Below are positions 2,449-24,871 of a stretch of DNA of 64,000 bases, piece by piece; position 1 is the stretch's first letter, and every line of letters starts with the position of its first letter. Under the pieces are notes generated by a model. It was not told where the DNA came from, did no database searches, and saw only the letters and a list, made by a program, of their open reading frames with translations. The DNA comes from Novosphingobium sp. Gsoil 351 (GTDB lineage Bacteria > Pseudomonadota > Alphaproteobacteria > Sphingomonadales > Sphingomonadaceae), in the NCBI RefSeq assembly GCF_009707465.1, contig NZ_CP046120.1, positions 1,021,501 through 1,085,500 of the forward strand, read 5' to 3'. The position numbers and the translations under genes are program-made.

Positions 2449-2946
2449 TCAGGACGGCGAGGCGTCAGTGATTTGTCCGCTCAGGGCTCCGAAGTGCAGC
2501 CCCAGTGCCCGCCAGGTGCCGCCATCTTCTACGCACACAGCCGTCACGACCCCGGAGCGCAAACGAAAGCCCGCGTCGTTGGGACGCCCCCGCAGGTTGA
2601 ACAGAAACGAGACGACTGCCGTATCGCGATGCAGATTAGAGCGCGGTTCGAGCAAGGCGAGCTCACAACTGGACCATGATGACGAAAGAAACGCGAGATG
2701 ATCGGCGTAGGTCGGCTTGTCCATGATGAACGGGACGTCGTCGCTAATCACCAGGGCGTCGTCGGCAAGCAACGCGAGTCGTTTCGCCGGATCCAGACGG
2801 CCGGCAAGGGCGGCAGTGACGGCCGCCTGCGCGGAGTCCGCGCCCGGCCCCCCAGCTAACGCTGCGCACGGCATGATCAAGCCGGACAACGCCAATGCCG
2901 CTCCGCCCAAAAGCGCCTGACGCCGCTCCCATTGCACAACCATCAT
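2449..2946 (-). CDS. SnoaL/NTF2-like protein with N-terminal export signal
   Basis: 165 residues from the first of two consecutive ATGs (2946). It overlaps the stop of the upstream gene by ATGA, so translation is probably coupled. The N-terminus has an arginine pair followed by a hydrophobic stretch and an Ala-rich end (RRQALLGGAALALSG ... CAALAGG), which suggests a Sec or Tat signal peptide. The remainder looks like the NTF2/SnoaL fold used by small isomerases, hydratases and DUF4440 proteins. It is the last gene of the leftward operon that starts at 10282. Function unknown. A longer frame to 3171 ignores the overlap architecture and was not used. Confidence 0.65.
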   Translation of the reverse strand: MMVVQWERRQALLGGAALALSGLIMPCAALAGGPGADSAQAAVTAALAGRLDPAKRLALLADDALVISDDVPFIMDKPTYADHLAFLSSSWSSCELALLEPRSNLHRDTAVVSFLFNLRGRPNDAGFRLRSGVVTAVCVEDGGTWRALGLHFGALSGQITDASPS

Positions 2947-3353
2947 CCCGGTGACGCCTTTGTGACATGGCCCACCAAGGGACTTTGCTGCCAGCTTGCC
3001 AATCGCCAGCCCTCGGCCAGCTTGGACCAACCTTGGGTGAACAGAAGGGGGCGGAGACGATAGCCGGAACCGCGAGGCTTGCCGCGGAACATCGCCGAGC
3101 CCGCTACGAAGCCCGCGCCTCCCCTCGCCACGAACCGGACCGCCATTGGTTTCCAGGCGAAGTTTTCCCACACCTCGGGACTATGAAAGCCGATGTGGTC
3201 CTGAAAGCCCTGCCGATCGACGCGGATGGGAAGGTCTTCGTCCAGGATCACCGCGTCGGGCAGAATCATCCCCCAGAACCCTGGCAAATCGCCGGTTGCC
3301 AGCGCCCCTTCCAGCCTGCGGAATGCCGCCTCGAGCTCAGTTGCCAGGATCAA
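2943..3353 (-). CDS. SnoaL/NTF2-like small protein
   Basis: About 136 residues. No ATG sits near the expected start. I chose TTG 3353, which overlaps the preceding hydrolase stop by 17 bp; a CTG at 3347 has a better spacing from the GGAGGG at 3355-3360. The sequence (LEAAFRRLEGALATGD, then WKPMAVRF, a glycine-rich turn and EGWRLASWQQ) has the alpha-helix plus beta-sheet pattern of NTF2-like proteins. It is paired with a second SnoaL-like gene downstream, as at 23290-24122. A catalytic or subunit role in the same pathway is inferred; substrate unknown. Confidence 0.6.
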   Translation of the reverse strand: MILATELEAAFRRLEGALATGDLPGFWGMILPDAVILDEDLPIRVDRQGFQDHIGFHSPEVWENFAWKPMAVRFVARGGAGFVAGSAMFRGKPRGSGYRLRPLLFTQGWSKLAEGWRLASWQQSPLVGHVTKASPG

Positions 3354-4134
3354 GCCCTCCGATGAAAGCGGACAGCGCCGCCGCGACGCCGTCGGGATCG
3401 CGATCCGGTTGGAAGTCGGCCCCGCCCACCACTGTGCTTCGCGCATCGGGGCGCATCTGCCCGGCACGCTCGAACAGCGGCCACAGAACGTCGTCCTTGG
3501 AACAGACGATATGCAGCGGCGCCTCGACCGCGCGATAGAGCGCAGTGGTGTCTTGCGCCCAAACCGCCTCGAACGCCTGGGGCATCGTGCGGTGCGCCAC
3601 GAGGTGATCGACCATTTCGCGCAGATGCAGGTCGAGGCCCGACCCCGCGCCGATCATCCGCAGATAGTCCCACGCGGTTTGCAGGAAGGCGCCGGTTTCC
3701 TCGGCGGCGAAAGGCCGTACGAAGATCTTGCGATATTCGGCCCTTTCCGCGTCGTTGACCAGCACCGGTCCGATCAGTGTCAGCGACCGCAGCCGCTGGG
3801 GCGCCGCCACGGCCATTTCCAGCGCGACACACCCGCCTGTGTGATGGCCGCAAGCGTGAAAGCGTTCGACGCCCAGGTCGTCCAGGGCCTCCAGCAGGCG
3901 AACCCCGGCGAATGCCAGGTCAGGCAGGATCGTTGGCTGATAGGATTGGCCGAAGCCAGGCGTATCGAAGGCAAGGCAGCGATACCAGCCGGCCAGCCGC
4001 GTCATCACCGCCTCGAACATGGCGCCCGAAGACGCGGTCTGATGGAAGAAGGCGATTACCGGCGCATCCACTGGCCCGGCCTCACGCAGGTGAATCTGGC
4101 CGTCGCGGCAATCGGCGAAGCGACGCCGGATCAT
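3337..4134 (-). CDS. Alpha/beta-hydrolase-fold protein with GHHTG instead of GxSxG
   Basis: 265 residues; the ATG at 4134 overlaps the bicupin stop (ATGA). The fold is clear: FFHQTASS in the oxyanion-loop position (about residue 30), DTPGFGQS (about 58), then the nucleophile elbow CGHHTGGC (about 95). A His stands where Ser is expected. The segment usually holding the catalytic His reads VGGADFQPD, so that His also appears absent. A paralogue at 10975-11763 shares FHQTASS and GHHTG but keeps GHNFEPD. The protein may use non-hydrolytic chemistry or be degenerating. It sits in an operon with cupins and SnoaL-like genes. Confidence 0.8.
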   Translation of the reverse strand: MIRRRFADCRDGQIHLREAGPVDAPVIAFFHQTASSGAMFEAVMTRLAGWYRCLAFDTPGFGQSYQPTILPDLAFAGVRLLEALDDLGVERFHACGHHTGGCVALEMAVAAPQRLRSLTLIGPVLVNDAERAEYRKIFVRPFAAEETGAFLQTAWDYLRMIGAGSGLDLHLREMVDHLVAHRTMPQAFEAVWAQDTTALYRAVEAPLHIVCSKDDVLWPLFERAGQMRPDARSTVVGGADFQPDRDPDGVAAALSAFIGGLDPGN

Positions 4135-5155
4135 TGCACTTTACGCTGCCATGACGAGCGGAAAGCGGACGCTTTGCCGCGACCGCCGGGCAGGTAAGGA
4201 ACCTCGCCGGGAAGGTCATCGTCGCCCCATAGGCGTCCGGACGGAGTCTGCCGCCAGGCCTGGTAGAGCGGATCGGCGTCCTGCACTGGCGCCAAAGGAT
4301 GATGGGACCAGGGGACGTGATCGATCTCGCGCGTCCAGTCCTGGGCCTCGAGATAGCATTCGCATAGCGACTGCCCGCCGGGATAGTCGCGGGGAGGCCA
4401 AGGGTAGCCCATCGGCGCGTCGGTATGGACCAGGATGATCGCGCCAGAGCGTGAGGCGAACGGCGCGTGATACCATTCCTGCGGGTGGCCGACGACGCTG
4501 CCGCGGCCCATCTGGCCTTCATTGACCAGCAGGACGTCGCCAGCCAGCACTATGATCTCCTCCCAGCACTCGTGGTGGACGTGCTCCGCCGCCGCGATCA
4601 TCTGCGGGGCGATGTATTGAAAGCGGAGATAACCGCCCGGCCCGCCGTCGAAACCTGCATCGGGGCTATCCGGGCAAGGATCGGGCAAACGCAACGACTT
4701 GTGCATGACCCCGTGGCCGCCCGGAACCGAATTCTTCCATCCAAGGCTGTGCGTGCCGACCACCCGCCGGCGGGTGTAAGGATACGGGAAACAGGGCGGA
4801 CTGGGATTCCAGAACGCCAGGGCTTGGGCGCCGCCTTGCGAGGAAAGCTCCCCCCGCCGCTGCCCTGGGGCAAATGAACATACCCTCCCCCGCCCACACT
4901 TTCGCCATTGAGGGCCAGATCGCCCGACAGCAGGAACAGCTCGAGGCTCGCCGCGTCAGCGGCGCAATTCTTGCGCCATCCCGACGCGATCTCGACCACA
5001 TGAGTTTCGGCCTGGCTGCCTCGATCGCGGCTCATCAACGCTCCGCTCAATCCTTCGAGCGCGCCCGGCCGATCACCCGGCTGCCGCTCGAGCGCTAGAA
5101 GACTGTAAAAGGTGGGCTCGTCGCGGCGCCAGTGCTCGGCGAACTGCCCCATCAC
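4131..5155 (-). pseudogene. Bicupin broken by a one-base frameshift
   Basis: Two frames together reconstruct one bicupin. The N-terminal half (from GTG 5155, or ATG 5152) contains LELFLLSGDLALNG and reads correctly to a G-run complementary to bases 4848-4853. The C-terminal half (HHECWEEIIVLAGDV, GHPQEWYHAPF) is one frame away. Adding one G to the six-G run joins them as GGGGELSSQGG...ALAFWNP. An intact 282-residue relative lies at 20046-20894. The break may be a real mutation or a sequencing error in the homopolymer. If real, only the C-terminal cupin (from about 4763) could still be made. Neighbours overlap it by ATGA and GTGA, so it was part of a tightly packed operon. Confidence 0.75.
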
Positions 5156-5514
5156 GGCGCGGTCGATTCGACCAGGATTACGGCGTCATCGTAGGGCGCT
5201 TGTTCGCCGGCGCGCAGGGCCAGTTCCTCGCGCTCCTGGTGGATAATGCGAAGCACGTTGTCGAGGAACTGGTCGCGCCATGAATCGCGCTCTTCGCGGG
5301 TCGCCGCGTCGGGCTGATAGGCGTCGATGGCGGCGCGGGTCACCGGAACGCCTTGCTCGAGCAGACGCTCGATCGTGTCGACGCGGTCGTGCAGCACCGC
5401 GGTTTCTCCGGCGAGCGCGAGGGTGATGGCCAGCACCTTGTCGATCGCCGGATCGTCGAAATACTGTGGCCGCTGACCCTTGGCCTTCAGTTGCAGCCTG
5501 CCTGCGTCGCTCAT
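5152..5514 (-). CDS. Conserved-looking 120-residue protein of unknown function
   Basis: Starts at ATG 5514 (MSDAGRLQLK) and ends overlapping the bicupin start. Codon use and tight packing support a real gene, whereas the longer open frame to 5937 overlaps the methyltransferase. The protein is hydrophilic and probably all-helical (DKVLAITLALAGETAVLHDR, IERLLEQGVPVTRAAI, FLDNVLRIIHQEREELALR). No signal peptide, membrane segment or metal motif is visible. It might be a small accessory subunit of a neighbouring enzyme; this is a guess from position only. Confidence 0.6.
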   Translation of the reverse strand: MSDAGRLQLKAKGQRPQYFDDPAIDKVLAITLALAGETAVLHDRVDTIERLLEQGVPVTRAAIDAYQPDAATREERDSWRDQFLDNVLRIIHQEREELALRAGEQAPYDDAVILVESTAP

Positions 5515-5587
5515 CCGTGATCGTCCTCTGGTATCCGCCCGAACGGGGGATGGGGATGGCGCTGGCGCCCCTGCCCCGGCACGACGT

Positions 5588-6760
5588 TTACTTGCGCACG
5601 CCCCACACCCACCAAGCGCCGCCGCCGCCAAAGTCGCCGCCCTGGAACACCTTGGTGCGTTTGGCCTCTGCCGCCTCGAAGGCGCTGGGCTGATAGGCTT
5701 CGAACGCGTGCGACGGGTCGAAGCCGGTCTCGGCCGCGATCTCCGCCGCCACAAGCTCGTGGCTTGCGCCCCAATAGGGCTCGTTGTTGTTGCGCGTGTC
5801 CCAATCGAGCATGAATGCGTCGTACGCCGGAAGATCGCGGTAAGGCGGCGTCTCGGCATGGACCACCATGCCGCCGGGGCTGAGCAGGCGATGGCATTCG
5901 CGCATGATCCGCCGGATTGCGGTGTGGCTGGTCTCATGAACCAGGATATGACTGACGATCAGGTCGAAATGGCCGTCGGGAAAGTCCGTGTGTTCGGCAT
6001 TCTGCTGGCTGAAATGAACGGTCTTTCCCAGCGATTCGGCGCGGGCGTGGGCATAGCGCAGCACCGGGGCGCCGACGTCGATCGCGTAAACCTCGGCATC
6101 GGGCCAGGCGTCGCAATAAGGGAGCGTCGAATGGCCGACGGTGCAGCCCATATCGAGGATGCGGCGCGGGGCGAAATCGGGATAATTCTGTTTGAGATAG
6201 GCGATCGTGGTATCGCCGATGTCAGAGTTCTCCGGCCCCATCCGGCCCATCGCGTAGATGTAAACCGCGCGGTCGTAGATCGCGCCGTTGGCGACGTCCT
6301 CGGCCACAAAGTCGGTGTGATAGCCGCCTGGCATGCAATGGATGTCAACCGACCGGTGATACCGCGGTATCTCAAGCTCCGGATCGAGGTGCAGACTGCC
6401 TTTCGTGGTAGCGGTCTTGCTCTGCTCGATAAGCTCGGCATGCTGGCGCTCGACCGGAAGCTGGACCGACTTCCACATCATTTCCTGGCTGTTGCGCTGT
6501 AGTGCGCTCCAGAAGCGGAAGTAAGGATCGCCGCCCATCGCCTTGCGCATGTCGGCAAGGGTTGCGGGCTCGTGCCCCGCCTCCTTTTCGAAACGTGGCT
6601 TGGCCCGCGCCTCGAAAGCATCCTTGTTGCCGACCGAGACCTTGCTGGCGAGGTGGAACTTCAGGCTCTTGACGAATTCCTGACGGGCGAACTCGTCCGC
6701 TGTAGTGTGCGGCAGCACGGCGTGGGGAAGCTGGCTCTTGAGATCGACATGCATGTTCAT
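5588..6760 (-). CDS. SAM-dependent class I methyltransferase
   Basis: 390 residues from ATG 6760, chosen because AAGGAGT lies about 8 bases upstream. The SAM-binding motif I reads RILDMGCTVGHSTLPY (about residues 200-215), followed by VYAIDVG (acidic end of motif II) and FDLIVSHILVHE (motif IV). The N-terminal 190 residues are an extra helical domain that probably forms the substrate pocket. A C-terminal glycine-rich tail ends GGGGAWWVWGVRK. It lies in the operon starting at the TonB receptor, so it likely acts on a small organic growth substrate or intermediate, not on DNA. Acceptor unknown. Confidence 0.8.
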   Translation of the reverse strand: MNMHVDLKSQLPHAVLPHTTADEFARQEFVKSLKFHLASKVSVGNKDAFEARAKPRFEKEAGHEPATLADMRKAMGGDPYFRFWSALQRNSQEMMWKSVQLPVERQHAELIEQSKTATTKGSLHLDPELEIPRYHRSVDIHCMPGGYHTDFVAEDVANGAIYDRAVYIYAMGRMGPENSDIGDTTIAYLKQNYPDFAPRRILDMGCTVGHSTLPYCDAWPDAEVYAIDVGAPVLRYAHARAESLGKTVHFSQQNAEHTDFPDGHFDLIVSHILVHETSHTAIRRIMRECHRLLSPGGMVVHAETPPYRDLPAYDAFMLDWDTRNNNEPYWGASHELVAAEIAAETGFDPSHAFEAYQPSAFEAAEAKRTKVFQGGDFGGGGAWWVWGVRK

Positions 6761-7364: not shown

Positions 7365-7369
7365 GCGCG

Positions 7370-7822: not shown

Positions 7823-10282
7823 TCAGAAGTTGAAGCGCCCTTCGAGGCCATAACTGCGGGTCGGTGCGCGGTAGACCGCGTGCGCGACCGGCAGGATCAC
7901 CACGGCGTCGCTGTTGTAGCGTTCGTTGAACAGGTTCTTGGACCACAACGCGAGATCCCAGCGATCGTTGCCGACGCCCAGCCGCGCATTAACGATGTCG
8001 ATCGGCGAACGGTCGGTATTGGCGAGATTGCGCTGATCGTACCAGATACGGCCAGTGCGGGTGTAGTCCACGCGGGCCAGCAGATTGAGCGTGTTCGACA
8101 CCGGCTGTGTCAGCTGGAAACCCGCGCTTATATTGTAGTTCGGCACGAACGGAATCTTGTTGCCAATGATCGCCGTGCGATCGGCCGGGTCCTGGCTGTC
8201 GATGTCTTTGATCTTGCCGTCGATGACCCCGGCGCCGCCGAATACCGAAAGGACGTCGGTAAGCCGAGCGTTGATGTCGATCTCGGCGCCGTTGATGCGG
8301 GTCTTCTTGATCTGCGAGATCGCCTGAATACCGCCGGTCGGGAAGAATTCGAATTGCTGCGCATTGCTGACGGTGGTGTGAAACACCGCCCCGTTGATGC
8401 TGATCCGCCGGTTGAGCAGCAGTGCCTTGAAGCCGAGTTCATACGAATCGGCGACTTCCTTGTCGTAGCTGTCCTGGACCAGGATATTCGGTAGGCCCTG
8501 GATAAGCACGGCGCGAGTGCCGATGGGGTTGAAACCGCCCGATTTGAAGCTGCGGCCGTATCCGGCGTAGATAGACCCGGACTTTCCGGGGAACTTGTAG
8601 GTCAGCGTGACCTTGGGCTGAAGTTGCCTGAAGGTGCGTTTCTCACGGCATGCCGCAGCGGTGCGGCCAGTGTATGCAACGCACAAGTTGTACGTCGCGG
8701 CGGGCGCGCCGGGCGCAACGCCAAAGAATGGATTGGCGATGTTGGGCGTCTCGGTGCGGATCGTCCGGCGCTCGATATCATAGCGCGCCGCGGCCTGAAA
8801 CTCGATCGCATCGGTGATGTCGAACTGGATGTTGCCGAACGGTGCGATGTTGCGCGCGGTGTAGTGATTGTCGTCGTAATTGACGGTGCCGTTGTTGCTG
8901 TCCGGCCCGTCGATCCCGCGGGTCGGCAGGATCGATCCGCCACCGATCAAGAGCCGCGTGACCGGCGCGACCGGTGCCCCGACCGTCGTTCCTTGAATGA
9001 CAAACGGGGGCAGCAGCCGGCCCATGGCGTCTCGCTGGAGGCGCCCGTTGAGTCCCTGCTCGGTGGTGAAGTCGCGTTTGGAATCGAGGTAGTAGGCGCC
9101 AAGCTGCCAGCGCAGTCGCTGCTCGCTGGGCGAGGTCAGCCGCACCTCCTGGATGAAGGCCTTGTTGGCGATGCGGAACTTCTGGGTGTTGTCGCCGAAG
9201 GCGGCGAGAATATCCAGGTTCAGGCCGGGCGACAACGCGTCCGACACGAATTCATTGCCGGCGAAGGTCCAGGCTCCGTACGGATAGTTCTTCGCTTGGT
9301 AGCGATCGACGATCGTGTTGTACGACGTAACCGAGGTAAGCTTGGCCCACTCAAAATCGTGATCGATCTTGAGCGCCACGCTCCACTTGTCCTGGACGTT
9401 GCGGCCGGGAACATCGGCCGTGTACGGCAGGCTGGTGTCGTCCGTGTCGATCTTCGTCACCGGCACCCCGCCCTGCGTCGACCCCACGACCTGGGCGTTG
9501 AATGCGATCGCGCCGCCGGTGACGTGGCTTGCGGTGCCGCGCAGGTCGAAGCGCGTCATCTCGCTGGCGTCCCAGATCAACCGGGCCCGGCCTTCCTTGC
9601 TGGTCATCCGCATGACCTTTTCGCCGGTGTTGATGTTGGTGAAAGGCCCATCGGTGTCGCTGAGCGCCGCCGACAGCCGGAAGCGCAGCTTGCCCGGAAC
9701 GATCGGGCCGCCGACGCTGACCGAACCCTTTGCGCTCTGCCAATTGCCGTAGCTGGCGCGCACTTGCCCCTCAAGTTCGTCGGTCGGCTCCTTCGTGGTG
9801 ATGACGATCGCCCCGGCCGAGGCGTTGCGGCCATACAGCGCACCTTGCGGGCCTTTGAGCACCTCGATCTGCTGGATGTCGAACAATTCGCCGTTGAATT
9901 CGTTCTGGGTGGCCAACTGGACCCCGTCGATGACGATCGCGACCGCGCCCTCGGACTGACGCACCGAAGTTTGCCCGCGGATGTTCACGAAGAATTCGCC
10001 AGCGTGGTTCGACTTTTCGAACGCGACGTTCGGGGTGAGCGCGAGGAAGTCTTCGGGCCGCGTAATCCCCGCGCGTTCGATCGTCTTCTCGCTGAAGACC
10101 TGGACCGCAACGGGGACTTCGACGAACGACTGATCGCGCTTGAGGCCAGTAACGACGATCGTGGCTTCGTCATCGTCGGGGGTGTTTGCGTCCGCCGGCG
10201 GTGGAGAACTCTGCGCCAAGGCCGGTGCGGCCAAAGGCAGCGTGGAAATCGAGGCGAGTAGGGCGATTGCGCTTTTCGTCAT
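7823..10282 (-). CDS. TonB-dependent outer-membrane receptor
   Basis: 819 residues from ATG 10282 with GAGGGGA upstream. A signal peptide (MTKSAIALLASISTLPLAAPALAQ, cleavage after ALA-Q) precedes a TonB-box-like ATIVVTG. The plug domain has QIEVLKGPQGALYGRNAS and the barrel ends in GLEGRFNF with the C-terminal Phe typical of outer-membrane proteins. It would import the growth substrate of this region, energised by ExbBD-TonB encoded elsewhere. First gene of the leftward operon; a perfect TTTGTATACAAA palindrome lies 47 bp upstream of its start, so regulation with the other TNGTATACNA units is likely. Confidence 0.92.
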   Translation of the reverse strand: MTKSAIALLASISTLPLAAPALAQSSPPPADANTPDDDEATIVVTGLKRDQSFVEVPVAVQVFSEKTIERAGITRPEDFLALTPNVAFEKSNHAGEFFVNIRGQTSVRQSEGAVAIVIDGVQLATQNEFNGELFDIQQIEVLKGPQGALYGRNASAGAIVITTKEPTDELEGQVRASYGNWQSAKGSVSVGGPIVPGKLRFRLSAALSDTDGPFTNINTGEKVMRMTSKEGRARLIWDASEMTRFDLRGTASHVTGGAIAFNAQVVGSTQGGVPVTKIDTDDTSLPYTADVPGRNVQDKWSVALKIDHDFEWAKLTSVTSYNTIVDRYQAKNYPYGAWTFAGNEFVSDALSPGLNLDILAAFGDNTQKFRIANKAFIQEVRLTSPSEQRLRWQLGAYYLDSKRDFTTEQGLNGRLQRDAMGRLLPPFVIQGTTVGAPVAPVTRLLIGGGSILPTRGIDGPDSNNGTVNYDDNHYTARNIAPFGNIQFDITDAIEFQAAARYDIERRTIRTETPNIANPFFGVAPGAPAATYNLCVAYTGRTAAACREKRTFRQLQPKVTLTYKFPGKSGSIYAGYGRSFKSGGFNPIGTRAVLIQGLPNILVQDSYDKEVADSYELGFKALLLNRRISINGAVFHTTVSNAQQFEFFPTGGIQAISQIKKTRINGAEIDINARLTDVLSVFGGAGVIDGKIKDIDSQDPADRTAIIGNKIPFVPNYNISAGFQLTQPVSNTLNLLARVDYTRTGRIWYDQRNLANTDRSPIDIVNARLGVGNDRWDLALWSKNLFNERYNSDAVVILPVAHAVYRAPTRSYGLEGRFNF

Positions 10283-10328: not shown

Positions 10329-10340
10329 TTTGTATACAAA
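10329..10340. promoter_or_regulatory. Operator-like palindrome TTTGTATACAAA
   Basis: A perfect 12-bp palindrome between the divergent TonB receptor (start 10282) and MarR-like (start 10438) genes. It matches the FadR-type GntR consensus TNGTnnnACNA. Related sites occur at 11789, 16029, 23147 and 24894. Confidence 0.6.
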
Positions 10341-10437
10341 ATGTGTCGCTTGTTTGCGCCCCGCGAGTCAACTAGAAAGAATTTCGGGGTTTCAAGGCGC
10401 ATTTGTAAGCGTTTATGCAGCTAATTTGCATGTTTTG

Positions 10438-10971
10438 ATGGATACGAGCATGGACGATCAACCCGATGTATACATGACGGCCGACGCCCAGGCGGCAGCG
10501 CTCACCCGCACCGAATTGTCGTTCATCCGCACGATCGAGGCATTCGGCCGCTGGGCCGAGTACCTCCACCTAAGCGTTTCGAGCGCGCGTTTGGGGGTTC
10601 AGGAAATCTGCCTGCTACACTCGATCCGGATGCGTGGCGGCGCGCAGAACCTCTCGGAACTGTTGATGTTTCTCAACCGCACCGATGTGTCGACGATTCA
10701 GTACTCGCTCCGCAAGATCGAGCAGCACGGGTTGATTGAGCGCGTCACCGGACGTAGTCGGCGCGAAGCCGGATACCGTCTGACCGACGAAGGAATCCGC
10801 GCCACCGACGCCTATGCCGCGCTGCGCGACGAGATCCTGCTCGGCCTGATCGACGAGGTGAACGGCTTTACCGCGTCGCTGGGCAGCGCGGCCGCTGCGC
10901 TGGAACGCCTGACCGGACTCTACGATCAGGCCACCCAGACCGTGCTCAACCGCAAGATCATGGTTCGCTGA
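10438..10971 (+). CDS. MarR-like winged-helix regulator (copy A)
   Basis: 177 residues from ATG 10438; ATG 10450 is an alternative. The core has the winged-helix pattern: NLSELLMFLNRTDVSTIQYSL (helix-turn-helix, about residues 75-95), RKIEQHGLIERV (recognition and wing) and SRREAGYRLTDEG. A close paralogue is at 13059-13580. It is divergent from the TonB operon and converges on the hydrolase gene 3 bp away. A 10-bp palindrome ATGTATACAT sits inside its first codons (10466-10475), which could give autoregulation. Ligand unknown; probably the regulator of the adjacent catabolic units or a partner of the GntR protein. Confidence 0.8.
   Translation: MDTSMDDQPDVYMTADAQAAALTRTELSFIRTIEAFGRWAEYLHLSVSSARLGVQEICLLHSIRMRGGAQNLSELLMFLNRTDVSTIQYSLRKIEQHGLIERVTGRSRREAGYRLTDEGIRATDAYAALRDEILLGLIDEVNGFTASLGSAAAALERLTGLYDQATQTVLNRKIMVR
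10466..10475. promoter_or_regulatory. Palindrome ATGTATACAT inside the 5' end of the regulator gene
   Basis: A perfect 10-bp palindrome sharing the GTATAC core with the upstream operator. It overlaps the codons for Val-Tyr-Met. It could be an autoregulatory site or a coincidence of coding sequence. Confidence 0.3.
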
Positions 10972-14383: not shown

Positions 14384-15999
14384 GGCGTCTCTCCGTTTAG
14401 CCCAAGTGCTCCCGGATTCATTAGGCCACGCGGATCCACGATGCCCTTTACTCCTTCGATGAGCCGGGCCAGGCCGTCGTTGTTCATCAGCTCGCGGTAG
14501 GGATAGTATTTGCCGATCTGAAGGTGGAGCGCGCCGAGTTCGTCGAACAGATCGCGCAACTCGTCGCGCAACTTGAGCGCGACCGCGCGACGTTCCTCGT
14601 TCGCGGGGATGTCTTTCCACTTCTCGGCAAATTCCGGCTCGATCAGCGACAGACGAAAATCCCCGAGGCGATCGGCCCAATAGAAACTAGGCTCAATCAC
14701 AAACTCCGGGCCTGAGAAGCAGGTCAGATACGAGGTTTTTATGCCCCACTCCTCCATCAGCGGCTTGCGTGCGGCAAGGAACTCTTCGGTAGTGCGCGCC
14801 GCGGCGATTGCCCGCGACAGCGGAAAGTATCCGTGGACAGGGATCCAGATCTCACCTTCGGAGCCGAGCAAGATCGTCCGCACGCCGCCGAACGGTGCGT
14901 TGCGGAATACAGTGGGGATTGAGTTGGCCATTTCCGACCCACCCTCCTCCACGCAGATTTCCGCCGCGATGTCGGTGTGCTCAGCCGCTACCGTCTCGGT
15001 GTGCGCATCGAGCGTCATGTGCAGCGAATAAGGAACGTCCTTAAGGATGCGCTTGCCTCCGAGCGCCACCTGCGCCGCGCGTTTTAGGCCCTTCAGCCCG
15101 CCCTTGCGCGCGATCTTGCCGACGATCGACAGGCCCTCCTCGAACGTGATGCCCTGCTTCTCGAAACCCGCATTGTAATAGGGATCGAACCCGTAGCACT
15201 CCGAAGCGATGTCCAGCCGGGCGATGCGCACCTGGGCCGCGAGCATGGCATCAAGCGTGTCGAACTTGAACGAGAGATAACCCGTGTGCGGCGGCGTTGT
15301 TACCAGGCGCAACGCCGCCACGGCCTTGACCGCAAAGGCGCCGGTGTCGGCGGTGAAAAGCCCAGTCATGTCAGGTCCAAAATGGCGCCAGAACGGGGTC
15401 GAGTGCTTGTGGGCCCATGACCCGGTGGTAACCACCGTGCCGTCGGCGAGCACCGCCTTGAGCCCGATCACGCTTTCCGCGGCCGTGCCGCCAACGCCCG
15501 AGCCGTGGAACAGGCTGTTCTGGGAAAGCGCGCCGCCGACGGTGGCATACGCGCCCGAGAGGGGACCCCAGTAAGGCGTGCGCACGCCGTGCGGTGCGAG
15601 CGCCTCGTACAACTCCTTCCAGGTGCATCCGGCCTCGACGATCACATACATATCGTCGGCGTTGATCTCGATGATCCGATTCATTCGGCGCATGTCGATG
15701 ACGACGCTGGCTTCGCGGTCGGGCGTGTACCCCCCGGTGTAGCTCATCCCGCCGCCGCGCTGGACGACGGCGTAGCCCGCGCCGGTCGAAGCGGCGACGG
15801 CCTGCGATAGCTCGTCGAGGCTGCCAGGGCGGATCACGAGCGAGGCGACCTCGCGGGCCCGCCACGATAGATCGGTGGAATAGAATTCGCGGGAAGCCGG
15901 GTCGTCGAGGACGTTTTCGCTGCCGAGGACCTGGCGAAGGTGGCTGGCCACACGATTGCCGCCGTCAATGGGCGGGACGACAGGGGCGCTGGTCGCCAT
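14380..15999 (-). CDS. VAO-type FAD-dependent oxidase/dehydrogenase
   Basis: 539 residues from ATG 15999, with TTGGAGA 8 bases upstream; ATGs further up lack a ribosome site. The PP-loop FAD-binding domain is visible: VVQRGGGMSYTGGYTPDREA (about residue 85), VEAGCTWKELYEAL (about 130), VGGALSQNSLFHGSG (about 160). The C-terminal cap ends DPRGLMNPGALGL, as in vanillyl-alcohol oxidase and p-cresol methylhydroxylase flavoproteins. These oxidise para-substituted phenols or 2-hydroxy acids, so a phenolic or hydroxy-acid intermediate is plausible. No cytochrome partner gene is nearby. Divergent from the GntR gene, with TTGTATGCAA between them. Confidence 0.85.
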   Translation of the reverse strand: MATSAPVVPPIDGGNRVASHLRQVLGSENVLDDPASREFYSTDLSWRAREVASLVIRPGSLDELSQAVAASTGAGYAVVQRGGGMSYTGGYTPDREASVVIDMRRMNRIIEINADDMYVIVEAGCTWKELYEALAPHGVRTPYWGPLSGAYATVGGALSQNSLFHGSGVGGTAAESVIGLKAVLADGTVVTTGSWAHKHSTPFWRHFGPDMTGLFTADTGAFAVKAVAALRLVTTPPHTGYLSFKFDTLDAMLAAQVRIARLDIASECYGFDPYYNAGFEKQGITFEEGLSIVGKIARKGGLKGLKRAAQVALGGKRILKDVPYSLHMTLDAHTETVAAEHTDIAAEICVEEGGSEMANSIPTVFRNAPFGGVRTILLGSEGEIWIPVHGYFPLSRAIAAARTTEEFLAARKPLMEEWGIKTSYLTCFSGPEFVIEPSFYWADRLGDFRLSLIEPEFAEKWKDIPANEERRAVALKLRDELRDLFDELGALHLQIGKYYPYRELMNNDGLARLIEGVKGIVDPRGLMNPGALGLNGETP

Positions 16000-16971: not shown

Positions 16972-17715
16972 TCAGATCGTACTCCCGCCGTCGATGCGGA
17001 ACTCGGCCCCGGTAGCGAATTCGGCTTCGTCGGTTGCGAGATAAACCGCCAAGGCAGCAATCTCCTCCGGCTTGCCCAGCCGCCCGAGCGGATGGGATGC
17101 GACGAACGAGGCATACAGTGCGTCCGGATCCTCGGATTGCGCGAGCACTTTGTCGATGATCGGTGTGTGAATCGCACCGGGGTGGATCGAGTTACACCGT
17201 ATGCCGTAGCCTTGAGAGGCGCAGTGCAGCGCCACCGACTTGGTCATGTGCGTAACCGCTGCCTTGGCCGCATTGTACGCGACCAGATTGGCCTGCGCGC
17301 GGACGCCGGTCATCGAAGACATGTTGATTATCGCACCGCCACGAGCCTTCATCTTGGCAACGCCGAACTTGCAGCCAAGGAACACTCCAACGACGTCGAC
17401 TTCGAACTCGTGCCTGAACTGATCGAGGGTGACCTCCTCGATTGACCCGAGTGTAGTAATACCTGCGTTGTTGACGAGCACGTTGATCGTGTCGCAGCTG
17501 TCGAGCGCGGCCTGCCAAGCCGCCTCGCTCGATACGTCGAGCCGCACGAACGTGGCCCGCGGGCCGAGATCGACCGCAAGCGACTTACCCGCCGCCTCGT
17601 CGACGTCCGCGATCACCACCTCGGCGCCCTCGGCTACGAAACGCCGCGCGATTGCTTCGCCCAGCCCGGACGCTCCTCCGGTTACAAACGTCCGCTTGCC
17701 TTCGAGCCGTCCCAT
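16972..17715 (-). CDS. Short-chain dehydrogenase/reductase
   Basis: 247 residues from ATG 17715, a classical SDR length. The nucleotide-binding motif TGGASGLGEAIA (about residue 13), Asp in IADVDEAAG (NAD preference), NNAG (about 86), and the active-site segment INMSSMTG ... YNAAKAA (about 131-153) are all present. It ends ATGAEFRIDGGSTI as usual. It stands alone between the GntR gene and a TetR relic. Probably oxidises an alcohol or dihydrodiol intermediate of the surrounding pathway. Confidence 0.88.
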   Translation of the reverse strand: MGRLEGKRTFVTGGASGLGEAIARRFVAEGAEVVIADVDEAAGKSLAVDLGPRATFVRLDVSSEAAWQAALDSCDTINVLVNNAGITTLGSIEEVTLDQFRHEFEVDVVGVFLGCKFGVAKMKARGGAIINMSSMTGVRAQANLVAYNAAKAAVTHMTKSVALHCASQGYGIRCNSIHPGAIHTPIIDKVLAQSEDPDALYASFVASHPLGRLGKPEEIAALAVYLATDEAEFATGAEFRIDGGSTI

Positions 17716-18802: not shown

Positions 18803-20068
18803 TCATGCATTCTCCTTCGGCATCAATCGGCGAGCGGCCGCCAGCAACGGCACCGCCAGAAGCAGCGCCGTGGCGCCAACCACGGCCATCGCCTGGCCGA
18901 GCCGCCCCTCGTCCGCGAGCAAGCGATCGGAGACCAGCGCCACCGCAGTCCCGCCGAAGCCGATGCCAGTCAGATTTACCACGAGCAGGTAGATTGCCGA
19001 GACACGCGCACGCAATGGCGGCGGAGTTGCCAGCTGCAACGAAACCACCGCGGGGCCGAAGCAGAATGCCGACAGGAACACCAGCGGCGCGAAAGCGGCG
19101 AGGCTCAACGCCGCCGAACCGGTGGTGGTGAGGATCAGTGGCACTGGCACCAGCAGGACCGCTCCACCCAGAGCCGCGGTTAGCGCGCCACGCGCGTCGC
19201 CGCGGGCGCGCAGGCGGTCGCTCGCCGCTCCACCAGCGAGCATTCCCGCGATGCCCGCAACCAGCACAATGCCTCCGATTGCGAGCCCGCTATCGGTCTT
19301 GGCCCACCTGAAAGCGCGCAGGAGAAATTCGGCGAGCCAGGCCAGATAGCCGTTGAACGCGAGGGTCAGCATCGAAAAGCCGGCGAAATGCAACGCCAGG
19401 AAGCGCCAGTCACGCTTGAGATGTGGCGCGAGCGGGGCAGGCGCCTGCGGCACGGCGGCGGGGCCACGGCGCGCCTCGGGAAGACGCCAGGCCACCAGCG
19501 CAGCCAAAAGCAACCCTGGCGCCCCGACAATCGCGAACATCGTCCGCCAATCGCCGCCGAGCGCATCCACCAACGCTCCGCCGGCCAGGAAGCTAAGCCC
19601 GATGCCAAGGTAGACCCCGCTGCCGTAGATCGCCAGCGCCCGGCCAACGCGTTCGGCGGGGTAAAGCTCGGCGATGAGCGAATAGGCTGACGGCGACAAC
19701 GCGGCCTCGCCGATACCGACACCCACTCGCGCGACGAAAAACCACCCAAAACTCGGCACCAGGCCGCACAGGATCGTCATCACGCTCCACAGAGCGATTC
19801 CAACCGTGATCAGGCGCCTTCGATCGCCTCGATCGGCGACCCACGCCAAGGGGATGCCGAGGATCGAATAGAACAGCGCGAAGGCCAGGCCGCCGAGAAG
19901 ACTGAATTGGGTGTCCGTAAGAACGAGGTCGGCCTTGATGGGGCCGACAAGCAACCCGACAATGGTGCGGTCGACATAGGACAGGACATACGCAGCGGTG
20001 AGCAGCGCCACCGCTCCCGCCGCGCCGGCCCGTGCCCCGACGCCGTCAGGCAAGCAGCGGTTCCTCAT
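18803..20068 (-). CDS. Major facilitator superfamily transporter
   Basis: 421 residues from ATG 20068, overlapping the bicupin gene by 23 bp. About twelve hydrophobic segments alternate with short loops. The signature between helices 2 and 3 is AWVADRGDRRRLI and helix 4 has RVGVGIGEAALSPSAYSLI, typical of the aromatic-acid/spinster-like MFS group. The paralogue at 35316-36671 shares RVGVGVGEAGLTPAANSLI. It would carry an acid across the inner membrane after uptake through the neighbouring TonB receptor. Last gene of the unit starting at 23107. Confidence 0.88.
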   Translation of the reverse strand: MRNRCLPDGVGARAGAAGAVALLTAAYVLSYVDRTIVGLLVGPIKADLVLTDTQFSLLGGLAFALFYSILGIPLAWVADRGDRRRLITVGIALWSVMTILCGLVPSFGWFFVARVGVGIGEAALSPSAYSLIAELYPAERVGRALAIYGSGVYLGIGLSFLAGGALVDALGGDWRTMFAIVGAPGLLLAALVAWRLPEARRGPAAVPQAPAPLAPHLKRDWRFLALHFAGFSMLTLAFNGYLAWLAEFLLRAFRWAKTDSGLAIGGIVLVAGIAGMLAGGAASDRLRARGDARGALTAALGGAVLLVPVPLILTTTGSAALSLAAFAPLVFLSAFCFGPAVVSLQLATPPPLRARVSAIYLLVVNLTGIGFGGTAVALVSDRLLADEGRLGQAMAVVGATALLLAVPLLAAARRLMPKENA

Positions 20069-20894
20069 AGGCGCGGGCGTGCCTTGCAAGTTCCGGCGGC
20101 AAGACCGGCGCATATGGCGGATCCCAACGGAACAGCTTCTTCTCGGTGGCGAAGATGTTGTCCAGCGGACCGTTTACCGTGCGCACGAACAGCAGATAGC
20201 CTGTATCGGTCCCAGAAGGGCCATGCCATTCCTGCTCACGCCACCACGCATAGCCCCCCGGGCCCATGCGCCCGCAATCGCCCCACACATAGTTGCCGGC
20301 AAGGCAATAGAGCTCCTCGACCATCGAGTGGGTCCATTGCGGCTTCGCCATGTCCGGGGGCACCCGGTGAGGCGGCGACATGTAAAGGAACGAGGTTTCC
20401 TGCGTATAGGGATCGGTACGAAGCGGTTTGATGGCCACGCCCTTCGACAGTTGCGGATCGACCAGTCCAGGATCCCATTCCATGCTCAGCGGATCCACGT
20501 GCGCAACCAGCAGCGCCGCGTCGTGCGGAGTCGCGGGCCGGCCGGCGATCACTTGCGGCGCGTCGTAGAACATCGTCAGCACGGTCGCGCCGTCGGGGGC
20601 GGAGGCGGTCTCACGAACGTAGCCTGCGGGTAGAAAGCCGTACTGGTGGCGGGTGTAGCTGCGCCCGTTGATGACCAGCTCGCCGTCGAGCACGAGGAAT
20701 TCCTCGTGGCAGGTCAGGTGTTCGGCTGCGTCGCGCCGCCACCCTTGTGGATAGCGCACGACCGTGGTGGCGTCGGTGCCGGCATCGTCGATCGACAGGA
20801 CCTTCGACTGCACTTCAGGCCGCGCGCCGGAATAGAGGCCGTCTTGCCACGGCAAGCACGGTGCCTGGATGAACAAGGTGTGCGGTCGCGCCAT
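20046..20894 (-). CDS. Bicupin protein (intact copy)
   Basis: 282 residues from ATG 20894. Two cupin domains: the first has HLTCHEEFLVLDGELVINGR (about residues 58-78), the second HSMVEELYCLAGNYVWGDCG and EWHGPSG (about 190-225). The His/Glu positions resemble metal ligands of acetylacetone-cleaving or gentisate-type dioxygenases, but I cannot assign a specific family. It lies 29 bp after the TonB receptor gene and is the intact counterpart of the frameshifted gene at 4131-5155, so it may supply the only working bicupin here. Confidence 0.75.
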   Translation of the reverse strand: MARPHTLFIQAPCLPWQDGLYSGARPEVQSKVLSIDDAGTDATTVVRYPQGWRRDAAEHLTCHEEFLVLDGELVINGRSYTRHQYGFLPAGYVRETASAPDGATVLTMFYDAPQVIAGRPATPHDAALLVAHVDPLSMEWDPGLVDPQLSKGVAIKPLRTDPYTQETSFLYMSPPHRVPPDMAKPQWTHSMVEELYCLAGNYVWGDCGRMGPGGYAWWREQEWHGPSGTDTGYLLFVRTVNGPLDNIFATEKKLFRWDPPYAPVLPPELARHARAYEEPLLA

Positions 20895-20923
20895 GGGTTT
20901 GGCTTCCCTCGATAGCCGGTGTG

Positions 20924-23107: not shown

Positions 23108-23146
23108 GACAGGTCCCCCCTGTTTGTGCCGGAGCGGATACGGCAT

Positions 23147-23158
23147 TTGGTATACCAA
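23147..23158. promoter_or_regulatory. Operator-like palindrome TTGGTATACCAA
   Basis: A perfect 12-bp palindrome 40 bp upstream of the TonB receptor start at 23107. It fits TNGTnnnACNA and shares its central ten bases with the site at 24894. Confidence 0.6.
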
Positions 23159-23289
23159 GTCAACGAGGCAGGCTTGAAAGCGGGCGGCCGCGGGGCGTTC
23201 ATGCGTGAAGCCCGACTTGCCTAGACGCGTGCTCAGGGGGGACGATCCGGCGGGAGCCAGCCGGGTTGGGCAGGCTGTCCGGGCGCCGT

Positions 23290-23688
23290 TCAAACTAGCG
23301 GGTTTTGCCCGCTCATATAGACGTAGACTTCCTGGAACTTGCCGTCTCGCACGCGCCAGAAGTTGGTGTTGTTGAGCCGGGTGACGGAGCCGTCGTGGCC
23401 GGTCAGCACGGCTTCGAAGCTGGCCGCGATGCGCCCGTTCTTGTCATCGACGGTGCAGGTGAAGTCCTTGTGGACGATGGTCTGGTAGCCGGCGAAGAAG
23501 TCTTCGAACATGCGGCGGATCTCGGCCTTGCCGCTGTGGCGGGTAAACGCGGTCTGGACGCAGAACAGCGCCTCGTCGTGGAAGCAGGCGAGGGCGGCCT
23601 CCATGTCCTTGGCGTCGACGCTGGCGAAGTACTTGCGCGTCGCCAGGTCGATCAGCTCGGCGCGCGAGAGGCCCGGTTCGTACTGCAT
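23290..23688 (-). CDS. SnoaL/NTF2-like protein
   Basis: 132 residues; ATG 23688 overlaps the stop of the upstream SnoaL gene (ATGA). RKYFASVDAKDMEAALACFHDEAL is the typical first helix and turn of this fold, and NNTNFWRVRDGKFQEVYVYMSG the last strands. The ending VYVYMSGxN is shared with its neighbour at 23688-24122, so the two are tandem paralogues and may form a heteromer. Members isomerise, hydrate or hydrolyse small ring compounds. Exact activity unknown. Confidence 0.75.
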   Translation of the reverse strand: MQYEPGLSRAELIDLATRKYFASVDAKDMEAALACFHDEALFCVQTAFTRHSGKAEIRRMFEDFFAGYQTIVHKDFTCTVDDKNGRIAASFEAVLTGHDGSVTRLNNTNFWRVRDGKFQEVYVYMSGQNPLV

Positions 23689-24122
23689 CAGGCGTCTCCC
23701 GGCTGGAGCAGGTTGTCGCCGCTCATGTAGACGTAGACGCGGTGGAACAGGCGGTCCTTCAGGTAGAACCGGTTGCAGTTCTCATAGCGCAGCTCGTCGC
23801 CGCCATGCGGGGTGATCAGCACGGTGAACTGCGAGCACACGGTGTTGCTGTCGGGGTCCGCGGTGTGGACGAAGTTGCCGTGCCAGATGTCGGAAAAGTC
23901 GGCGAACAGCTTCTCGAACATCCTGGCGATGCCTTCGTCGCGCCCGGTGTGGACGGTGCCCGAGGTGACCTCGGTCAGCACCGCGTCCTCGCTGAAGCAG
24001 TTCAGCACCTGGGCCAGGTTCTTGTTGTCGACCCCGTCGAAGTACCGCTTGGTGACGATGTCGATATAGAACGGATAGGCCAGCGCCTTCTGCCCGGTCC
24101 CACCTTCGCTCCACTGGCTCAT
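23688..24122 (-). CDS. SnoaL/NTF2-like protein
   Basis: 144 residues from ATG 24122, which overlaps the racemase-like gene end by four bases. TKRYFDGVDNKNLAQVLNCFSEDAVL and ENCNRFYLKDRLFHRVYVYMSGDN mark it as a paralogue of the next gene. A longer open frame to 24506 runs inside the racemase-like gene and is not real. The pair follows an Asp/Glu-racemase-fold gene, which suggests consecutive steps on a dicarboxylate or ring-opened acid; this is inference. Confidence 0.75.
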   Translation of the reverse strand: MSQWSEGGTGQKALAYPFYIDIVTKRYFDGVDNKNLAQVLNCFSEDAVLTEVTSGTVHTGRDEGIARMFEKLFADFSDIWHGNFVHTADPDSNTVCSQFTVLITPHGGDELRYENCNRFYLKDRLFHRVYVYMSGDNLLQPGDA

Positions 24123-24871
24123 GCCCAGCCCTTCCGGATGTCCGCGTCCTTGCCCACCTCGGGCGAGGGAAACGCCTTCTTCGAATGCGAAAGGCCAAGC
24201 CCGATCAGCAGCTCGAGCTGCTTGTAGGCGACCTGTCCGGGGTTCAGCACCGGGACCGGCAGGTTCGCGGCGAGGTATTGCGCCGACTGGTGCATCGTCG
24301 TCGAGCCCAGCACGATCACGTCGGCGCCGTCCTGGGCGATCGCCTTCTCGGCCTCGGCCTTGAGCTTGGCGAAGATCACCTCCTCCTTGCCCGCGAGCAG
24401 TTCGGTGACGTCGGGCCGGGTGTCGATCGAGCGCAGCGAGGCGCAGCGGCTCCACCAGCCGTACTCGGTCAGGGTCTTCTCGTAGAGCGGGAACCACTGC
24501 GGCCACATCGTCAGCACGGTGAACTTCTTGCCCAGCATCATCGCGGTGGCGAACGCGGCCTCGCCAGGCCCCACCACCGGGATGCTCAGGCGCGAGCGCA
24601 GCGCGCGCAACCCCGAATCGCTCACCGTGTCGATCAGGACCCCGGCATAGCCCTCGTCCTCGGCATCAATCCCGGCCTGGAACACGGTCCAGTCCATCAG
24701 CAGCATATCGTGATAGCTGTCGCCCAGCGCGGCGCCCCACCGAACCGCGGCAAACTCAGGCCGAAACCCGCCAGCGACGAAATCGTCCGGAAGCTGCAGC
24801 GCCCGATTGGCAACACCCGCCGAATCCATCGGAATCGGAACAACCACCTTGATGCGTTTGCAGTCGGCCAC
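24119..24871 (-). CDS. Asp/Glu/hydantoin-racemase-fold protein lacking both catalytic Cys
   Basis: 250 residues from GTG 24871, with GGAGGTG just upstream; no ATG precedes the first strand RIKVVVPIP. The fold is recognisable from DSGLRALRSRLSIPVVGPGEAAF and VIVLGSTTM. In hydantoin racemases the two active-site Cys lie in ACFGDPGL and VLGCAGM. Here the matching segments read DTVSDSGL and VLGSTTM, so Thr and Ser replace them. Racemisation by the two-Cys mechanism is therefore unlikely; a hydrolase, decarboxylase or binding role is possible. A TGGTATACCA palindrome lies 23 bp upstream and SnoaL-like genes follow with overlaps. Confidence 0.75.
   Translation of the reverse strand: MADCKRIKVVVPIPMDSAGVANRALQLPDDFVAGGFRPEFAAVRWGAALGDSYHDMLLMDWTVFQAGIDAEDEGYAGVLIDTVSDSGLRALRSRLSIPVVGPGEAAFATAMMLGKKFTVLTMWPQWFPLYEKTLTEYGWWSRCASLRSIDTRPDVTELLAGKEEVIFAKLKAEAEKAIAQDGADVIVLGSTTMHQSAQYLAANLPVPVLNPGQVAYKQLELLIGLGLSHSKKAFPSPEVGKDADIRKGWA

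Follow-up and report, generated by a model that had tools for sequence, protein, structure and literature searches.

A RutA-like monooxygenase gene of Novosphingobium sp. Gsoil 351 lies in a conserved neighbourhood, possibly a catabolic island for a cyclic amide or N-heterocycle

What does a sphingomonad do with an enzyme resembling the pyrimidine oxygenase RutA when the genes around it encode flavoproteins, cupins, a methyltransferase and TonB-dependent receptors? The question is raised by a 64,000-nucleotide stretch of Novosphingobium sp. Gsoil 351 (contig NZ_CP046120.1, positions 1,021,501 to 1,085,500; hereafter the window), from a genome that is one contig of 3.82 Mb. A preliminary description had proposed that positions 2449 to 24871 hold an undescribed catabolic system for the uptake, oxidation, ring opening and isomerisation of a phenolic or N-heterocyclic substrate, and its statement that no described pathway combines these genes stands: no published description of the gene set was found in the open-licence literature. 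Here we report that the neighbourhood of the RutA-like gene is conserved beyond chance, and we give roughly even chances to reading the 2.4-25 kb region as a conserved island for the aerobic catabolism of a cyclic amide or an N-heterocycle, the substrate and the ring opening being what we infer. The Pfam scan covered thirty open reading frames (ORFs) from 0.9 to 29.7 kb, 20 of which were also compared with NCBIfam; starts were placed at a plausible ATG or GTG.

The enzyme at the centre of the region is a luciferase-like monooxygenase (LLM) of the flavin mononucleotide (FMN) type:

11839..12906 (ATG at 12906), minus strand: RutA-like FMN monooxygenase (LLM), 355 aa; Bac_luciferase 194 bits

It has the luciferase-like fold of the RutA/SfnG/NtaA branch, the group C flavin-N5-peroxide monooxygenases, and its best match in the PDB is RutA itself (7e-87). 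Against TIGR03612, the model for pyrimidine utilization protein A, it reaches 360.5 bits, short of the curated cut-off of 498.3, and six of six relatives (five proteins of its clade and L057, a relative at 54% identity) likewise stay below it with 352-387 bits; the four canonical same-genus controls scored, out of 20 control RutA loci, all reach 634-665 bits. When 36 clade and 12 canonical-type sequences are aligned, 59 positions are kept in both classes (at least 91-93% per class) and five positions separate them. Given these scores and positions, the window enzyme is, judged by its sequence, a member of a sister subfamily distinct from pyrimidine RutA. The window ORFs scanned include no match to a RutB-family isochorismatase, RutC or RutG of the rutA-G operon, and the isochorismatase genes of the host genome lie outside the window. 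By analogy with its family, the enzyme would use flavin-N5-peroxide chemistry and might cleave an amide: RutA-like group C enzymes cut carbon-heteroatom bonds in this way, and DszA and HcbA1 extend the class beyond amides, according to the available part of one source (PMC8283759). The 120 listed relatives are called 'pyrimidine oxygenase' (JGI) or 'LLM class flavin-dependent oxidoreductase' (NCBI), and many are unnamed; because proteins of the subfamily score below the RutA cut-off and their neighbourhood does not support a pyrimidine substrate, many of the former labels may mislead.

The genes of the island lie nearly all on the minus strand, the plus strand carrying two MarR genes and one GntR gene. 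Besides the RutA-like gene, the part up to 16.8 kb comprises:

2449..2946 (ATG at 2946), minus strand: SnoaL/DUF4440-like protein, 165 aa; weak, Pfam DUF4440 23.6 bits against a cut-off of 25.2
3337..4134, minus strand: alpha/beta hydrolase 1, GHHTG at the nucleophile elbow in the translation; Pfam Abhydrolase_6/_1; 55.6 bits against TIGR03611 (RutD), far below the cut-off of 238.5
4131..5110, minus strand: bicupin with a frame break near 4854 (two ORFs, 4131-4763 and 4598-5155)
5152..5514, minus strand: conserved small protein F03, 120 aa, partner of the methyltransferase; no Pfam match
5588..6760, minus strand: class I S-adenosylmethionine methyltransferase, 390 aa, with a helical N-terminal region; Methyltransf_25 72.8 bits
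6783..7364, minus strand: AhpD/carboxymuconolactone-decarboxylase-like protein; PF02627 31.7 bits
7370..7810, minus strand: single-domain cupin-like protein, 146 aa; no Pfam match at 1e-3, weak match to ectoine synthase (E 0.083), paralogue of the cupin at 13949-14383 (42%)
7823..10282, minus strand: TonB-dependent receptor 1; Plug and barrel domains
10330..10971, plus strand: MarR-type regulator 1; HTH_27 53.6 bits
10975..11763, minus strand: alpha/beta hydrolase 2, GHHTG; Abhydrolase_1 54 bits
12993..13580, plus strand: MarR-type regulator 2; HTH_27 51.6 bits
13587..13946, minus strand: 119-aa protein, weakly REDY-like HapK-like; no Pfam or NCBIfam match, 32% over 66 aa to the annotated HapK of plasmid pJE1
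13949..14383, minus strand: single-domain cupin, 144 aa; Cupin_3 24 bits, cut-off 23.5
14383..15999, minus strand: VAO/D-2-hydroxyacid-dehydrogenase-fold flavoprotein, 539 aa; FAD_binding_4 118 bits
16099..16788, plus strand: GntR/FCD regulator; Pfam

To see how far this arrangement recurs, 84,980 species genomes were scanned once with a 16-sequence alignment, which returned 73 loci, each with flanks of up to 10 kb: 44 at a RutA identity of at least 59%, 28 at 45-57%, and L093, a 25-residue match that was excluded. The clade set consists of 36 of the 44 loci, with RutA at 59% or more and a length of at least 9 kb; seven short loci (L029, L041, L055, L072, L087, L088, L090) and L053 (Pseudonocardia), which shows only RutA, were omitted. 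The distant set takes 23 of the 28 loci at 45-57%, leaving out L066, L076, L078, L080 and L083 (only RutA and an SDR there), and the control set is 20 same-genus RutA loci at 37-45% identity, trimmed to 20 kb. Counts rest on tblastn and not on ORF families, since a simple ORF script sometimes takes the wrong frame in GC-rich DNA. Two genomes bear two labels each (G018 is L028, and G050 is L086).

Within the 36 clade loci, relatives of the methyltransferase occur in 20, of its small partner in 19, of the alpha/beta hydrolase in 13, of the VAO-fold flavoprotein in 12, of the cupin in 7, of the GntR regulator in 6, of the SnoaL proteins in 5 (four as a pair) and of TonB-dependent receptor 1 in 4 (66-73% identity in the best three). 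MarR regulator 2, the racemase-fold protein and the 2449-2946 protein are each found in 3 loci and the AhpD-like protein in 2; the bicupin, the MFS transporter, TonB receptor 2, the SDR and the 119-aa protein occur in one locus each, and TonB receptor 3 in none. Setting aside the SDR and TonB receptor 3, 29 clade loci share at least one family with the window, 24 at least two and 9 at least five. Apart from the SDR (5/23 and 1/20), no window family was found in the 23 distant or the 20 control loci. The search for conserved neighbourhoods that the preliminary description had proposed as its check thus bore it out: overlapping sets recur, in Thermaurantiacus, Novosphingobium, Halieaceae, Pseudohaliea, Stutzerimonas and Pseudomonas, and the neighbourhood is conserved beyond chance. 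The clade loci are not independent events, since 13 of the 36 belong to the family of Luminiphilus, and the SDR at 16972-17715, being found in all three sets (a relative at 74% lies in L148 of G018), is not specific to the island. The nearest arrangements are those of Thermaurantiacus (L021, seven families) and a Halieaceae genome (L030, eight). Another genome of the same order (G060, L145) has the hydrolase, small partner, methyltransferase, AhpD-like protein and cupin in window order; the small partner also adjoins the methyltransferase in pJE1, L114 and L118, and in several loci the RutA-like gene is directly followed by the second GHHTG hydrolase (10975-11763 in the window).

The clade loci also contain families that the window lacks. 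HyuA is present in 15 of the 36, HyuB in 14, another SDR in 16 (1/23 distant), isochorismatase in 11 (query F09) or 10 (a second query), CoA-transferase III in 10 (F12) or 7, a class III aminotransferase in 8, the large subunit of a molybdenum hydroxylase (CoxL-type) in 7, and a ureidoglycolate-lyase family member and an HMG-CoA-lyase-like (HMGL) gene in 5 each (HMGL 1/23 distant). HyuA, HyuB, isochorismatase F09, CoA-transferase F12, aminotransferase III and molybdenum hydroxylase were found in 0/20 control and 0/23 distant loci, as were the methyltransferase, small partner, hydrolase, VAO, cupin and GntR queries. An FMN reductase accompanies the RutA-like gene in L031, L032 and L037 (Pseudomonas, Stutzerimonas). 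These recurrent partners mostly act on lactams, imides, amides, N-heterocycles and branched hydroxy acids. Of the two substrate classes first proposed, the N-heterocycle is favoured over the phenolic one because the added neighbours are cyclic-amide enzymes.

Single loci make the association more concrete. G018 and G036 carry HyuAB, isochorismatase and HMGL near the RutA-like gene, and in G018 the racemase-fold gene (80%) sits with them; G015 has the methyltransferase at 58% together with two hydrolases, TonB receptor 1 and an isocitrate lyase (ICL)-family lyase (55%). In the next-nearest RutA-like group, from Pseudonocardia and Actinomycetospora (RutA-like 55-57%), six loci (L060, L062, L064, L065, L069, L092) have an isochorismatase as well as an ICL-family relative (39-42%) nearby. 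The RutA-like gene of Burkholderia sp. IMCC1007 (L057, 54%) lies with isochorismatase, HMGL and LeuCD relatives and with ORFs that, named by eye from their first residues, encode an old yellow enzyme, a PuuE-like protein and a CoA-transferase. This strain degrades fusaric acid, and in the accessible part of their paper its authors point to nic genes (PMC10293998); the L057 cluster is a candidate for alkylpyridine breakdown. A more distant RutA-like gene (48%) on pSI-1 of Arthrobacter sp. AK-1 (L096) was seen beside a cyclase, a carbon-nitrogen hydrolase, an FAH protein and two flavin reductases.

The host genome itself holds two further islands, at 3.32-3.40 Mb and 1.56-1.62 Mb. The first carries VAO paralogues (38-40%), a methyltransferase with its small partner (41-42%), HyuA and HyuB (80% and 82% to pJE1), isochorismatase, HMGL, CoA-transferase, an ICL-family lyase (73%), LeuC (65%), LeuD (49%) and a copy of the 20046-20894 bicupin at 81% DNA identity. 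The second has a methyltransferase with small partner, CoA-transferase (63%), HMGL (55%), LeuCD, isochorismatase (77%), a VAO protein, TonB receptors, and a protein 78% like a polysaccharide-deacetylase-type protein of Sphingobium sp. TomTYG65, with the PuuE allantoinase as its best PDB match. A fourth methyltransferase paralogue of the host (38%; L122 5172-6407) lies near a TonB receptor, without a small partner at the thresholds used.

Sister islands occur on two sphingomonad plasmids, pJE1 (Sphingomonas sp. JE1) and pTomTYG65b (TomTYG65), with methyltransferase relatives at 43%. That of pJE1 contains the methyltransferase, the small partner, annotated VAO-type oxidases, a cupin, GntR, TonB, MFS, SDR, HyuA and HyuB. 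pTomTYG65b shares the methyltransferase and VAO relatives and the same layout, adding an ICL-family lyase, two LeuCD pairs, two polysaccharide-deacetylase-type proteins, an isochorismatase, an HMG-CoA lyase and a CoA-transferase; several of its island genes are annotated as hypothetical. No substrate for either island was found in the literature; TomTYG65 is a tomatine-degrading isolate with steroid genes, as the consulted part of its description has it (PMC10653915), and that part does not mention the island on the plasmid. In the stretches examined both differ from the window island in having no RutA-like gene.

If the region serves a cyclic amide or N-heterocycle, TonB receptors and the MFS carrier would import the compound, and the VAO-fold flavoprotein and cupins would oxidise it. 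The RutA-like enzyme might then open an amide-type ring bond by means of a nucleophilic flavin peroxide, a chemistry suggested by its family, and the two GHHTG hydrolases could act on the opened product. The product would pass to a lower pathway whose genes are present in the two other host islands. Amidases and hydrolases of the hydantoinase family would act there, LeuCD-type enzymes would hydrate a substituted maleate, and carbon-carbon lyases would presumably yield central metabolites. The MarR, GntR and TetR proteins would control the island. The methyltransferase and its small partner are real parts of the island without an assigned step.

The remaining genes, from 16.9 kb onwards, are as follows:

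16972..17715, minus strand: SDR dehydrogenase; adh_short_C2 190 bits
18118..18669, minus strand: TetR-type regulator, frame-broken by eye; TetR_C_11 21.7 bits, below cut-off
18803..20113, minus strand: MFS transporter; MFS_1 156 bits
20046..20894, minus strand: bicupin (Cupin_7, two stretches); Pfam; 62% relative in L054
20924..23107, minus strand: TonB-dependent receptor 2; Pfam; 45% relative in L054
23290..23688, minus strand: SnoaL-like protein, 132 aa; SnoaL_2 48 bits
23688..24122 (ATG at 24122), minus strand: SnoaL-like protein, 144 aa; SnoaL_2 40.9 bits
24119..about 24883, minus strand: Asp/Glu/hydantoin-racemase-fold protein; PF01177 103 bits
23289..24860, minus strand: duplicated cassette spanning both SnoaL genes and the greater part of the racemase-fold gene; a 1572-base copy with 99.75% identity lies in the 3.32-Mb island (L116 16940-18511)
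24951..26972, minus strand: TonB-dependent receptor 3, island membership unproven; Pfam; 0/36 loci
27134..27646, minus strand: flavin-reductase remnant (domain positions 2-101 of 153), broken or mis-sequenced; PF01613 51.7 bits, 37% over 91 aa to two annotated flavin reductases of pSI-1

Pfam and NCBIfam agree with the preliminary description on the RutA-like monooxygenase, VAO-type oxidase, AhpD-like protein, methyltransferase, SDR, MFS transporter, bicupin and racemase fold, and both GHHTG motifs are there in the translations. Its four SnoaL-like proteins came down to three (2449-2946, weak; 23290-23688; 23688-24122), and its two TonB receptors became three. Cupin-type genes are indeed present, but the 'cupin' at 4131-4763 is half of the frame-broken bicupin. 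Not mentioned there were the two MarR, the GntR and the TetR genes, the small methyltransferase partner and, beyond the described interval, the flavin-reductase remnant.

Several findings weigh against the cyclic-amide or N-heterocycle reading. Seven of the 36 clade loci have none of the window families, the SDR and TonB receptor 3 aside. The lower-pathway genes of the host are about 0.5 and 2.3 Mb away from the window island, and queries for LeuCD, the ICL family and the PuuE-like protein found nothing within 10 kb of the clade RutA-like genes (0/36; outside the clade, ICL-family 6/23 and, in L057, LeuCD 1/23 distant loci), so the lower pathway is tied to the RutA-like gene of the clade only through HyuAB, isochorismatase and HMGL. 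HyuB is in turn common, with a close relative in 47 of 98 relatives of the host, so only its position is informative. The ICL-family gene was rejected as proof of a dimethylmalate lyase, since its PDB matches do not separate it from methylisocitrate lyase and others. No intact flavin reductase was found near the monooxygenase in the window, and three genes within 25 kb are frame-broken: the flavin reductase (27134-27646), the TetR gene (18118-18669), whose TetR-like N-terminal residues were seen by eye in another frame, and the 4131-5110 bicupin, to which tblastn with an intact 303-aa relative from L021 aligns at 67% over 239 aa and, in another frame, at 48% over 85 aa. The three breaks may be assembly indels or decay.

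Other findings tell against the preliminary interpretation. A RutA-like gene of at least 55% identity is rare in the genus, being present in 4 of 59 genomes including the host and missing from 55; methyltransferase and VAO relatives occur without RutA in the plasmid stretches; and linkage to the RutA-like gene is much rarer for the second half, from 16.9 to 27 kb. The preliminary interpretation is supported in part. It is doubtful, though worth weighing, that independent operons merely stand side by side, one at 2.4-16.8 kb and another at 16.9-27 kb brought by duplication. The 23.3-24.9 kb cassette, a 99.75% copy of another locus, the IS256-type transposase at 901-2160, the linkage of bicupin, MFS and TonB receptor 2 in 1/36 loci and that of TonB receptor 3 in 0/36 all fit such a history. 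Yet L027, L086 and L028 link the SnoaL pair and the racemase-fold gene with the RutA-like gene and the methyltransferase (the VAO gene joins them in the first two), and L054 ties the MFS, bicupin, TonB receptor 2 and SnoaL pair to the methyltransferase and RutA-like gene. In the 3.32-Mb island, two transposase-like ORFs (by eye; L113 11535-12401 and L116 13277-14254) have the same first 40 residues and are possible agents of the cassette duplication.

A phenolic route is unlikely. Here the VAO-fold protein would oxidise a lignin-type phenol or side chain, the cupins and AhpD-like protein would act on the ring, and the RutA-like enzyme would remove a halogen, sulfur or ester group with no nitrogen-ring opening. 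In its favour, folds of the VAO and eugenol oxidase type turn up in the structural comparison, and the class reaches beyond amides with DszA and HcbA1 (PMC8283759, as far as the part consulted goes); L027 has GST and DSBA-family genes near its RutA-like gene, and an aromatic meta-cleavage region lies downstream in the window. Against it, D-2-hydroxyacid dehydrogenases give the best structural matches, and the enzymes that recur as partners are hydrolases of the hydantoinase, imide and amide types. Pfam also found no extradiol, intradiol or Rieske family in the ORFs scanned at 2.4-27 kb, although ring cleavage by a cupin is conceivable. That the genes form a biosynthetic or tailoring cluster, in which methyltransferase, SnoaL, cupins and the luciferase-like and VAO flavoproteins decorate a natural product, appears highly unlikely. 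SnoaL, cupin and methyltransferase folds are common in such clusters, and the methyltransferase's fold matches include RebM, AtmM and MitM; against this, the 30 window ORFs scanned contain no carrier-protein, polyketide-synthase or peptide-synthetase family, three TonB receptors are present, and the neighbours elsewhere are CoA-transferases, lyases and amidases. The phenolic route, the unlinked operons and the biosynthetic cluster are all weaker than a pathway for a cyclic amide or N-heterocycle.

Who carries the RutA-like gene suggests a narrower form of the cyclic-amide or N-heterocycle pathway. The host has reaction-centre (PufL/PufM-type) genes, and among its 98 relatives this family occurs in 4 of 4 genomes with a RutA-like gene (at least 55%) versus 9 of 94 others (Fisher 2e-4). 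Genomes with a window-type methyltransferase (at least 73%, a threshold chosen after the hits were seen) have a match in 5 of 5 cases versus 8 of 93 (Fisher 1.9e-5), one of the five, G060, having only a reaction-centre fragment and no RutA-like gene; HyuB relatives are present in 12 of 13 phototrophs versus 35 of 85 others (Fisher 6e-4, post hoc). In the family of Luminiphilus syltensis (140 genomes) the match is found in 10 of 13 RutA-clade genomes versus 43 of 127 others (Fisher 0.0047, two-sided), with a pooled odds ratio of 10 when the RutA criterion is used in both sets. Clade and distant carriers also differ in reaction-centre matches (21/37 versus 0/13, taken from 44 and 28 loci), a comparison confounded by taxonomy, and all these p-values are too small because related genomes were counted as independent.

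Since RutA-clade carriers are enriched in aerobic phototrophs, we considered that the island is part of a bacterial pathway mineralising tetrapyrroles, that is, breakdown products of chlorophyll, bacteriochlorophyll or bilins. This reading, which draws on gene content and the phototroph association, is distinctly unlikely; the link fits tetrapyrrole turnover but also any compound common in lit surface water. In this version the flavoprotein and cupins would oxidise the substrate to pyrrole lactams or maleimides, the RutA-like enzyme would open these oxygenolytically beside HyuAB and imidase-like hydrolases, and isochorismatase deamidation, LeuCD hydration of methyl-alkyl-maleates and lyases would give pyruvate and an acyl product. 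From general pathway knowledge, such substituted-maleate chemistry, with LeuCD and lyases leading to pyruvate, might suit hematinic acid or methylvinylmaleimide. If true, it would explain the three parallel islands in one genome, the joint presence of two LeuCD pairs and two kinds of lyase on pTomTYG65b, and the enrichment of aerobic anoxygenic phototrophs among alpha-, beta- and gammaproteobacterial carriers of the RutA clade. Against it, genomes with only distant methyltransferase relatives (59% or less) have a reaction-centre match in 1 of 18 cases, so the wider methyltransferase family is not tied to phototrophy; nor is phototrophy needed, because 16 of 37 clade genomes have no match, including Stutzerimonas degradans, two Pseudomonas and two Rhodospirillaceae assemblies (some incomplete). 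A physical link to the photosynthesis gene cluster was rejected, with no BchL, BchM, PuhA, PufL or PufM match in L001-L093, and BchH, suspected from ORF length in L036 and L042, was not supported by the sequences. Should the island serve N-heterocycle or tetrapyrrole turnover, its genes would be targets for knocking out a step in the cycling of carbon and nitrogen to which no described genes could be matched in the literature.

Known systems resemble the island in part. With the Rut pathway (RutA-RutG) it shares the monooxygenase fold with its 59 conserved positions, a distantly RutD-like hydrolase and, in related loci, an FMN reductase and an isochorismatase, the family of RutB; it differs in the missed RutA cut-off, the five class-separating positions and the lack of a rut operon in the window, and it adds VAO, methyltransferase and cupins, with HyuAB, CoA-transferase and lyases in related loci. 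The lum cluster for lumichrome and riboflavin likewise combines amide hydrolysis, a xanthine-oxidase-type hydroxylase and cupin enzymes on an N-heterocycle, but has a P450, a thiamin-dependent decarboxylase and Rieske and catechol dioxygenases, and 'RutA' does not appear in its available text (PMC12746152). None of these four families is among the ORFs scanned at 2.4-27 kb, which sets the island apart from lum. Nicotinate and picolinate-type pathways run via a maleamate route. An isochorismatase-type amidase and a maleate-level product would plausibly be shared logic, whereas the presence of LeuCD and HMGL together with CoA-transferase and lyases of the ICL family hints at a substituted maleate.

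Some of the proteins are unusual in themselves. The GHHTG motif, with histidine in place of the usual serine, is kept in both window hydrolases and in 17 of 17 called family ORFs in the loci (one being the window's own), so they are not GxSxG serine hydrolases. Hydantoin and allantoin racemases use two catalytic cysteines. In the racemase-fold protein, aligned to one annotated allantoin racemase, these are T and S; four Novosphingobium relatives keep the same residues, and EMRT-2 also lacks both cysteines. An isomerase role was rejected for this reason, and the isomerisation step proposed earlier is not supported. The methyltransferase model (pLDDT 87) has a best PDB match of TM 0.43 on the query among the 50 matches listed. 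For the VAO-fold model (pLDDT 80), LDHD and D-2-hydroxyacid dehydrogenases lead (TM 0.72-0.74 on the query), followed at similar TM by vanillyl-alcohol and eugenol oxidases, at 16-21% identity among 50 matches listed; the FAD_binding_4 domain and overall fold place it among VAO/PCMH flavoproteins. The models indicate fold class only and were set aside as substrate evidence. The chemistry of the GHHTG hydrolases, of the racemase-fold protein that lacks the cysteines, and of the methyltransferase and its small partner is unexplained, and all of these proteins are open to test.

Beside the island, the ORF at 901-2160 is an IS256/Mutator transposase by Pfam, and an ORF with its length and first 50 residues lies at L152 17095-18351, in the photosynthesis-gene region of the host genome. 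Further downstream, 29927-53198 is a second, separate aromatic region (20 ORFs scanned, up to 53 kb) with two Rieske dioxygenase pairs, extradiol-type (Glyoxalase) proteins, two FAA hydrolases, an acetaldehyde dehydrogenase, a PdxA-like protein, an aldolase II, an IclR regulator and a fourth TonB receptor.

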